Shown here: positions 33,648-35,524 of the stretch, piece by piece | Layout: each line of letters begins with the position of its first letter | Numbering within the stretch: the first letter of the stretch is position 1 | Origin: Alloyangia pacifica | GTDB taxonomy: Bacteria; Pseudomonadota; Alphaproteobacteria; Rhodobacterales; Rhodobacteraceae | Direction: 5' to 3' | DNA length: 64,000 nucleotides | Assembly (NCBI RefSeq): GCF_020524285.1 | Contig: NZ_JAIVKX010000002.1 | Coordinates: forward strand, 558,001-622,000 | The notes under the pieces: model-generated | What the model was told of the DNA's origin: nothing | Seen by the model: the letters and a program-made list of their open reading frames with translations, nothing else | Databases searched by the model: none | Made by a program: the position numbers and the translations under genes

Positions 33648-35057
33648 TCACAGCCCGCGCACCCGGGGTCGCCGCCAGCCCTCTGCCGGTCCGGTGACCA
33701 ACTCGGTCAGCGCCCAGACCAGCGCATCCACCCGGTCGGGCGAGCCCTGTCCCCGGAACCCCGATGCGGTCATCAGCCCCATCTGCTCCTCCAGCAGCTC
33801 GAACCGCCGCGCATGGGCGATACGCCCCTGCTCGTAGAGCGCCGCCACGGGCTCGGCGCGCAGCGCCTTGCCGCGCGTGGCGCTGACCTTGCGCAGCGGC
33901 ACCGCGGGCGCCACCTGCCGCAGCACCGCCTCGACCATGGCGCCGCCCTGGTTGACCTCGGCGACGATGCGATCCGCCTGCCAGCGCTCAAAGGCCGCCA
34001 CGGCGGCGCGGGCCCAGCCGGTCGGCCCGAGCCCCTGCACCGAGGCATCCTCGAGCACCACCGCCTGCCAGCCCTGCGGCGGCCCCTCGCAGCTCACGCC
34101 GCAGACGACGATGCCACAGGCGTCGGACCCGGCGCCATCCCCGGCGGGCGGGTCCACCGCGACGACGATGCGATCCATCCGCTCCGGCGCCGCCCGCAGC
34201 CGCGCGCGCTCCAGCACTTGTTGCGTCCAGAGCGTGCCGTCGACGTCGCAGACCATCTCGCCGTCAAGCTCCTGCCGGGCCAGCCGCGTCGCCCCGTAGC
34301 GCGCCCGCACCTCGTCGAGGAAACTGGCCGCGAGGTTGGCCCGGTTCGCCTCGGTCGGCGCCCGGCTCACCACGGTGCTCTCCATCTCCAGCAAGTCTTT
34401 CAGAACGCCGATATTGCGCGGCGTGGTGGTCACGCAGACCTGAGGATGCGCCCCCAACCGCAGCGCGAACTGCAACATGTCCCAGGTGTCCCGCGCCTTG
34501 CGCCATTTGCCCAGCTCGTCCGCCCAGGCGCCATCGAACTGCGGCCCGCGCAGCGCCTCTGGGTCATGCGCGGAGAAGACCATCGCTTCGGCCCCATTGG
34601 GCCACGTCAGACACCGCCGCGTCGCGCTCCAGTCCGGCCGCCGATCGGGCGGAGAGCAGGCGAGCAGCCCTGAGTCCCCGAACACCATCACCTCCCGCGC
34701 CTGGTCCAGCGTCTCGCCGACCAGCGCCACCCGCTTGCAGCGCCCCGGCGAGAGCGGCAGCGCGCCCTCCACCGAGGCACGCACCCATTCCGCCCCGGCC
34801 CGGGTCTTGCCCGCGCCGCGCCCGCCGAGGATCACCCAGGAGCGCCAGGCGCCCGCGGGTGGCAGCTGGTGCTCCAGCGCCCAGAACTCGAAGAGAAAGG
34901 GAAGCGCCAGGCGCTCCCCCTCCGACAGCTCATTCAGGAAACTCTCCTGCACCGCAGCACCGGCGGAGGCGAGCCATGCGGCAGCCGACCTCAACCCTTG
35001 CGCGCTCGAGATCGAGCGCCCAGTCTCCGGCAATTCCCTTCTGCTTGCGTCTGACAT
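33648..35057 (-). CDS. GTA g2: large terminase
   Basis: 469 residues from ATG 35057. ATPase Walker A GGRGAGKTR (78-86), Walker B-like PQFDGAWADELGKW, and a nuclease domain with VVAVDPPAG and DACGIVVCG Asp residues. It pumps host DNA into GTA heads. The chosen start overlaps g1 by 128 bp; GGAGG lies 12 nt upstream. ATG 35081 (GAAGG upstream) is an alternative, and a later non-ATG start near the g1 stop would remove the overlap but also shorten the conserved N-terminus. Confidence 0.93.
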   Translation of the reverse strand: MSDASRRELPETGRSISSAQGLRSAAAWLASAGAAVQESFLNELSEGERLALPFLFEFWALEHQLPPAGAWRSWVILGGRGAGKTRAGAEWVRASVEGALPLSPGRCKRVALVGETLDQAREVMVFGDSGLLACSPPDRRPDWSATRRCLTWPNGAEAMVFSAHDPEALRGPQFDGAWADELGKWRKARDTWDMLQFALRLGAHPQVCVTTTPRNIGVLKDLLEMESTVVSRAPTEANRANLAASFLDEVRARYGATRLARQELDGEMVCDVDGTLWTQQVLERARLRAAPERMDRIVVAVDPPAGDGAGSDACGIVVCGVSCEGPPQGWQAVVLEDASVQGLGPTGWARAAVAAFERWQADRIVAEVNQGGAMVEAVLRQVAPAVPLRKVSATRGKALRAEPVAALYEQGRIAHARRFELLEEQMGLMTASGFRGQGSPDRVDALVWALTELVTGPAEGWRRPRVRGL

Positions 35058-35271
35058 TCCTGATCTGTGCCTCCGTTTCATGGGCGACCTTCAGCCAGTA
35101 GCGCAGATCCGCCGCGGCCTTGCTGGTCTCCGGTTTGTCCAAGGTGCCGTCTTCGTCGAAGCGGTCGCGCAGGCGCCGCATGTCATTGCCGAGATGCCGC
35201 AGCATGTCGGCCAGCTGCTCCCGTTCCTCTTCGAGACGGGACAGCTCTTCTTCGAGATGAATGAGGATCAT
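34930..35271 (-). CDS. GTA g1: small terminase
   Basis: 113 residues, mostly alpha-helical with a coiled coil at 5-40 (LEEELSRLEEEREQLADMLR). KPETSKAAADLRYWLKVAHE and RRKQKGIAGDWALDLERARV are typical of GTA g1, which serves as a small terminase without sequence-specific DNA binding in R. capsulatus. The ATG overlaps the stop of the 73-codon leader ORF (ATGA). First structural gene after the promoter. Confidence 0.88.
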   Translation of the reverse strand: MILIHLEEELSRLEEEREQLADMLRHLGNDMRRLRDRFDEDGTLDKPETSKAAADLRYWLKVAHETEAQIRNVRRKQKGIAGDWALDLERARVEVGCRMARLRRCCGAGEFPE

Positions 35272-35489
35272 CGCTCGATACCTTTCTTGCCTGTGGAATC
35301 CTTGCCTCTGGACTCCTTGCCTGTGGGACTCTTGCCTGTAGGGAGTGCCTCGCAGGGGCCCGCGCCGGTCTCCGCCGGGGTCGTCGCGCCCTGCCGCTGC
35401 ACGAGAAAGGCGGCCCATCGACGAGCCGCCAAACGAAAAAGCGGCCGCCGGGGGTATCCCCGGGGCCGCCTGCCCATCTCGTCCAGCAT
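35268..35489 (-). CDS. Leader ORF of the GTA transcript (73 codons)
   Basis: Open from an ATG at the predicted transcription start (35489) or ATG 35477 to a TGA that overlaps the g1 start codon. The peptide is Arg-rich at first (MLDEMGRRPRGYPRRPLFRL) and ends with four five-residue repeats ([20 protein letters not shown]). No ribosome site; it would need leaderless initiation. The ATGA overlap and in-frame repeats favour translation, but no family is recognised. It contains the terminator-like hairpin. Confidence 0.4.
   Translation of the reverse strand: MLDEMGRRPRGYPRRPLFRLAARRWAAFLVQRQGATTPAETGAGPCEALPTGKSPTGKESRGKDSTGKKGIER
35286..35345. repeat. Four 15-bp tandem repeats in the GTA leader
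   Basis: Plus-strand units start at 35286, 35301, 35316 and 35331, each beginning CTTGCCT. The 15-bp period keeps the leader ORF in frame and encodes the x-x-(T/R)-G-K repeats. Confidence 0.8.
35436..35469 (-). terminator. Intrinsic-terminator-like hairpin in the GTA leader (attenuator candidate)
   Basis: Minus strand: GCGGCC-CCGGGG, loop ATAC, CCCCGG-(C)-GGCCGC: 12 bp with one bulged C, directly followed by TTTTT. It starts about 20 nt after the predicted transcription start and faces the GTA genes. On the plus strand there is no T tract. Confidence 0.7.
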
Positions 35490-35495
35490 GCCAGA

Positions 35496-35524
35496 ACCCT
35501 AGCGAAGAGCGTCCGCAAAGTCAA
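35496..35524 (-). promoter_or_regulatory. GTA cluster promoter
   Basis: -35 TTGACT (35524-35519), 17-nt spacer, -10 TAGGGT (35501-35496) on the minus strand; predicted start near 35489. This is 218 bp upstream of the g1 ATG. Confidence 0.65.

Follow-up and report, generated by a model that had tools for sequence, protein, structure and literature searches.

The gene transfer agent operon and its leader

The window analysed here is a 64,000-nucleotide stretch of Alloyangia pacifica DNA (contig NZ_JAIVKX010000002.1), and it contains a gene transfer agent (GTA) cluster of the RcGTA type in which terminase, portal, protease, capsid and megatron genes follow one another in order, each matching its family (for the megatron, NF048004 GTA_megatron at 1897 bits). 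The gene for the large terminase subunit (TerL) is preceded by a g1-like gene, which gave no family match at its cut-off, and the upstream neighbour of the leader is a divergent aminotransferase gene. The same genome encodes one DUF6456 protein of 384 aa, of the GafA C-terminal type and a homologue of a known antiterminator. The features discussed below are collected in Table 1.

Table 1. Features of the GTA leader and adjoining genes in the window, and long TerL frames in other genomes
Feature	Position	Strand	Details and basis
-35 element, TTGACT	35519..35524	-	by eye
CGNNCG spacer motif (CGGACG), candidate GafA/GafZ-type binding element	35510..35515	-	information peaks
-10 element, TAGGGT	35496..35501	-	by eye; 17-nt spacer from -35
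Predicted transcription start	about 35489	-	spacing from -10
Outer helix, 5' strand, GAGATG	35475..35480	-	covariation; by eye, 5 of its 6 pairs can form in the window
Terminator stem-loop	35441..35469	-	12 bp, one bulge, 4-nt loop; arms 35469-35458 and 35453-35441 (6 + 6 bp, GTA direction), bulged C at 35447, loop AUAC at 35457-35454; fold and covariation
U-run, UUUUU (5 U)	35436..35440	-	read from sequence
Outer helix, 3' strand, CGUUUG	35430..35435	-	covariation and fold
Second terminator-like hairpin	35409..35430	-	scanner; directly 3' of the first; the aligned same-genus leaders lack it
g1-like gene (TerS position), first operon gene	34930..35271	-	position and conserved start relative to TerL
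g2, terminase large subunit (TerL)	33648..35081	-	Pfam Terminase_6N and 6C
Long TerL frames	L107: 1811-3064; L117: 1815-3065		also in G083, G103, G145, G113, G142, G091, G148, G144

An earlier, sequence-only reading had described a 12-bp GC hairpin with one bulge and a 4-nt loop, followed by five U, in the leader of this operon. Folding and cross-species conservation confirm the structure: the 60-nt leader (35489-35430) reaches -35.5 kcal/mol (z -4.46), and none of 200 dinucleotide shuffles folded equally well, while a longer 66-nt stretch, folded first, gave z -3.65 with 1 of 200 shuffles equally good. The plus strand at the hairpin gave z -2.18 and has no U-run 3' of the stem. The hairpin, about 21-54 nt beyond the predicted operon start, cannot be the terminator of the upstream gene, which is divergent; we rejected that role for the window. 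A simple terminator scanner does not report the hairpin, for which we take the bulged C to be the reason, and Rfam returned no family at its gathering score (18.7 bits at best, with 45 needed). The hairpin is real, and its features strongly support a function as an intrinsic terminator.

Immediately beyond it lies the second terminator-like hairpin of Table 1; could this be a species-specific tandem terminator? Closer to g1, a 15-bp-spaced repeat built around the ACAGGCAAG motif occurs three times (35286-35337) and stretches the window's leader to about 218 nt, compared with roughly 95 in many relatives.

A promoter scanner reported no promoter in the leader region of the window. Across Rhodobacterales leaders, information in the spacer peaks at positions 9, 10, 13, 14 and 16, with numbering from the first T of TTGAC, and CGNNCG is conserved there at a fixed place; the start region (GCTGGA type) is conserved as well. 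The spacer motif is similar to the left half of GCGCCCG-CTGGCGC, the Caulobacter ZBE.

Distribution of the leader terminator

We searched 150 genomes of the family, nearly one per genus, of which 134 (133 genera) carry TerL and 137 a DUF6456 protein. Alignment of other Rhodobacterales leaders had been put forward in the sequence-only reading as a check on the hairpin and U-run, and a strict intrinsic terminator, scored without a covariance model, is present in 93 of the 134 GTA-bearing leaders. The terminator features ahead of the first gene, on which that reading was built, recur across the family at a fixed distance from the -35 box, with the stem ending 77-88 nt after the box in 88 of the 93. 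U-runs of 4-7 occur in 82 of 87 genus-level leaders, in a search that demanded at least three. Among 108 leaders selected by their match to the promoter pattern, the strict rule finds a terminator in 91, compared with 15 of 1080 shuffled sequences and 4 of 108 antisense ones, and a looser rule gives 96/108, 221/1080 and 8/108, respectively.

A terminator-blind pattern places TTGAC at the -35 position in 100 of the 134 genomes, and the strict terminator accompanies this near-consensus promoter (89/100 leaders with it against 4/34 lacking it; Fisher p 1e-16, uncorrected for relatedness). Mapped on a TerL tree, the terminator switches state 30 times, and 10 independent pairs are concordant for promoter and terminator in 5.1 cases and discordant in 0.1 on average (median p 0.06). 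With the tree, the tie is weaker than in the raw counts: its direction is consistent, and it falls short of proof. Forty-one of the 134 leaders are without a strict terminator, though most of the family has a GafA-like protein. In one of the counts of individual loci, L088 is scored as lacking a terminator; it carries one 245-274 nt upstream of g1, beyond the zone covered there.

The spacer motif and the terminator co-occur among 88 dereplicated leaders, a larger and more related set (66/71 against 5/17; Fisher p 1.4e-7), and in a genus-level set the figures are 82/90 against 7/10 (Fisher p 0.08). Among promoter-bearing leaders the motif gave no independent signal with the terminator once the TerL tree was used, and we discarded it as an independent correlate, the association being strong in the larger set and gone after the tree.

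Individual loci were read for 19 same-genus leaders, which were aligned, and 69 other Rhodobacterales loci, of which two gave no g1 match. The promoter pattern occurs in 74 of 87 leaders cut to 300 nt, and a simple sense count gives terminators in 71 of 87, compared with 7 antisense. This count is not our main figure because upstream genes' own terminators are mixed in; in part of the window's genus the upstream gene is co-directional, with its own terminator before the promoter. Lack of the structure in close relatives had been named beforehand as an argument against it, and the same-genus leaders divide on this point under the strict rule: 12 of the 19 others pass and 7 of the 19 fail, five keeping hairpin-like sequence without the U-run. 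The same-genus loci L012, L013, L015, L017 and L019 have kept a hairpin with an ACAGGC-type loop and lost both the U-run and the usual spacer motif; GafA of this group may have changed specificity.

A covariance model built from the alignment A1 described below matches 93 of the 150 family genomes, nearly all with one match per genome. In 87 of the 134 TerL genomes the match lies 206-348 nt upstream of TerL on the same strand; another nine matches are at other places or on different contigs. When the filters were switched off, 40 of the leaders counted as missing (G103 included) yielded 9 matches at E 0.01 or better. In a by-eye comparison, a GafA-like DUF6456 protein accompanies the model in 91 of the 93 positive genomes and is found in 137 of the 150 overall. 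Class-wide the model matches 4 of 289 genomes: three belong to the family, and the fourth, a weak match outside it (31.3 bits, E 3e-4), may be chance. In an IMG/VR batch, with L124-L203 and L251-L284 left out, it exceeds 40 bits in 8 of 47 sources; the Rhodobacter-type contigs L205, L206 and L208 start at or inside g1, so that the leader falls outside them. The model offers a marker for intact GTA leaders in genomes.

In passing, we observed that 10 of the 134 genomes match TerL only to about residue 190 (WxDExG), while their reading frame runs on. In the two that were read, L107 and L117, TerL is joined to the GTA_TIM/tail part of the megatron and the intervening genes are lost; inteins were considered for the long frames and rejected, as the frames are fusions. 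The ten genomes have no portal match at E 1e-170, and they keep the promoter and the leader terminator. A TerL tree of 12 labelled rows, built on partial sequences, requires 10 changes, at least 7 of them on supported branches, and the fusions are perhaps repeated deletions at one short repeat.

Pairing in the leader RNA

Pairing was assessed in an alignment, A1, of 54 of the 67 non-redundant leaders (74 promoter-bearing); because the 13 leaders without the hairpin or departing from it were omitted, A1 is chosen for the hairpin. Within it, 88.5% of stem cells pair, compared with 81.8% when shuffled and at most 61.9% when slid, and 9 of the 12 pairs carry two-sided changes, in 51 cells compared with 10.5 after shuffling (0/500). 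Moreover, arms folded with their own partners reach -21.7 kcal/mol, against -15.4 when swapped between species (0/300; relatedness not corrected). An RNAalifold consensus on A1 contains part of the inner stem plus outer pairs only. The terminator of these leaders occupies a defined position in a fixed geometry, is conserved, and covaries at the RNA level.

Two further features bear on the level at which selection acts. G-U cells in the stem outnumber A-C cells (45 against 11; p 5e-6), and GNRA accounts for 38 of the 56 tetraloops found among 87 hairpins. This G-U excess and loop preference indicate selection on RNA, not on a DNA palindrome, which they make unlikely.

The six positions 5' of the stem can pair with the six 3' of the U-run, forming an outer helix. 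It is paired in 81.2% of cells, compared with 75.5% when shuffled and at most 58% when slid (0/500), with 18 double-change cells against 6.5 after shuffling (0/500). The number of its pairs with double changes is equalled by 97 of 500 shuffles, and a control slid by +1 has 20 double-change cells against 18. Own flanks give -4.8 kcal/mol and swapped flanks -4.0, a cost of 0.8 (0/300; relatedness not corrected). The outer helix is weaker than the inner stem and appears to covary too; it can form only after read-through, and any role in the read-through mRNA is a guess. Between the U-run and g1, beside the ribosome-binding region, a stem of the CTCGTGC...GCATGAG type recurs (for example in L342 and L204), with a mean z of -0.84 and 46% of 86 below -1; it might affect g1 translation.

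GafA as a candidate antiterminator and comparison with known systems

According to PMC9638019, it is not settled how GafA switches on the archetypal GTA or why particles are made by only few cells. The same leader is present in a genome whose portal has 100% identity to the Rhodobacter capsulatus chain of PDB 6tba, and all 17 leaders fetched from the Rhodobacter-type genus, that of this genome included, match the model at 45-59 bits. Relative to the ATG taken as the g1 start, the R. capsulatus-type leader has its -35 at -129, its -10 at -106, the start near -93 and the hairpin from -76. The probe bound by GafA covers 76-125 nt upstream of g1 and contains the RNA-seq-supported start (PMC6363796). 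Placing this probe on the leader map indicates that the R. capsulatus start precedes the hairpin and that GafA binds spacer, -10 and start, in an operon and under a regulator that are the same as in the window. In their accessible text, PMC6363796 and PMC9638019 treat GafA as an activator of initiation, with omega as the route, whereas we propose an antiterminator; a word search of that text found no mention of a terminator or hairpin. A literature search, with subscription papers mostly outside reach, found nothing on a leader terminator in a Rhodobacterales GTA.

In Caulobacter, GafZ is an antiterminator that is loaded between -10 and -35 and gives read-through of terminators, a foreign one included (PMC11150451). 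GafA is homologous to GafZ, its C-terminal part has been reported to bind matching DNA, and Tran and Le suggested in the Caulobacter paper that GafA may have unrecognised antitermination activity (PMC11150451). The leader terminator sits between the promoter and the first gene, as in units of the Q, AlpA and GafZ type. We consider it probable that the leader terminator is an attenuator which GafA, loaded at the spacer, lets polymerase read through into the structural genes, a switch of the lambda-Q/AlpA type. The near-consensus sigma-70-type promoter would start transcripts without the activator, and in its absence these would stop at about +54, the sequence of the hairpin predicting termination in the cell. 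The C-terminal, GafZ-like part of GafA would bind between -35 and -10, where CGNNCG is the candidate loading site, and GafA, an antiterminator by analogy with GafZ, would join RNA polymerase and permit its passage through the leader terminator into the structural genes.

If correct, this would explain the silence of a near-consensus promoter and tie GTA control to phage late-gene control, and it suggests that particle production depends on the regulator letting polymerase through. Since the R. capsulatus operon has the conserved leader terminator, the suggestion of Tran and Le becomes directly testable. A more far-reaching version is possible, if doubtful: in most Rhodobacterales, R. capsulatus included, the choice to make GTA would fall after initiation, with the promoter firing alone and the terminator at about +54 stopping it; GafA would be chiefly a processive antiterminator using omega and ppGpp, as AlpA seems to; and the RNA would then refold through the outer helix into a 5' hairpin that shields the mRNA, serving as off switch and afterwards as stabiliser.

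The terminator could also work while GafA acts at initiation only, strong initiation overriding a partial terminator that would be a noise filter rather than a switch. Binding of GafA around -10/-35, its link to omega and its description as a polymerase recruiter fit this account, which we nevertheless regard as unlikely: the GafA C-terminal part has in GafZ a homologue that reads through terminators, and the terminator is found chiefly behind near-consensus promoters. These should be less dependent on an activator, given that a consensus -35 made GafYZ dispensable in Caulobacter (PMC11150451). The stem might instead mainly protect the 5' end of the read-through mRNA, as a stabiliser or a barrier to RNase, with the outer helix folding the U-run into a long hairpin, as the excess of outer pairing and the advantage of own flanks would suggest. 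Such a stem has no need of the U-run, yet 4-7 U are almost always kept, and on two double-change measures the outer helix does no better than its control; as the main function this is improbable, and stabilisation may be a second role rather than a rival.

We give little credence to a small RNA gene whose product is the terminated transcript of about 55 nt: promoter, conserved 5' sequence and terminator are the minimal needs of such a gene, but its loops vary, no Rfam family reaches threshold, and nearly every genome matched by the model has just one match, located at the GTA operon. Just as improbable is a DNA site, for example for the N-terminal domain of GafA. That part specifically bound probes 1 and 3 in R. 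capsulatus, flanking the C-terminal site in probe 2, and from the probe layout probe 3 probably covers the hairpin; a DNA palindrome, however, demands neither the surplus of G-U over A-C, nor favoured GNRA loops, nor a U-run. The least likely account is translation-coupled attenuation, in which a ribosome on a leader ORF opens the hairpin. The window's own ORF invites it, with 73 codons that begin near the predicted start and a stop overlapping the g1 start, but this ORF has no family match, only 37 of 89 leaders have an ATG there, and the stop codon comes anywhere between 4 and 73 codons. With the ATG confined to a minority of leaders and the stops so variable, there is no conserved leader ORF, and we rejected it as a sensor and as any part of the control. 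The second switch by antitermination that the sequence-only reading had postulated is retained for the activator, as the best reading given homology with Caulobacter GafZ, and dropped for leader translation.

GafA as proposed here would act much as Q does at the lambda PR' promoter and AlpA at the alpB promoter. In lambda, the loading element of Q lies inside PR' and the terminator tR' in the leader; distance and proteins differ from those of the GTA leader. The Bartonella BaGTA reportedly uses antitermination, going by the title of a 2025 eLife paper (RP105142), and in this it would resemble the proposed control in the window.

In Pseudomonas aeruginosa, AlpA passes tB, a terminator that begins at +54 and precedes the first gene, and removal of the terminator raised a reporter more than 28-fold (PMC7969949). 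This unit resembles the Rhodobacterales leader in its element between -10 and -35 and its early intrinsic terminator, and AlpA shares with GTA control activity in a subset of cells and an influence of ppGpp genes. AlpA-tolerating mutants fell in relA, spoT and rpoZ, the last perhaps through polarity (PMC7969949); RcGTA output is about five-fold lower without rpoZ or relA/spoT, as told in PMC11150451. AlpA differs from GafA in that the accessible text of PMC7969949 describes it without homology to other antiterminators; the element sequences also differ, and the unit is not a GTA.

The Caulobacter CcGTA shares with the window a GTA operon, an antiterminator of the GafZ/GafA C-terminal kind and an element between -10 and -35 (PMC11150451). 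Its terminator, terGTA, is made up of three 150-bp repeats and follows the first gene, gtaT, whereas the window has a single intrinsic terminator, which is short and begins about 20 nt past the predicted start. The Caulobacter -35 is degenerate and requires GafY and IHF, in contrast to the near-consensus promoter of the window (PMC11150451). Antitermination in a GTA is already known from Caulobacter, and the earlier remark that no GTA attenuator had been described gives way to this precedent, with its terminator after the first gene; the terminator conserved among the Rhodobacterales lies earlier, in the leader.
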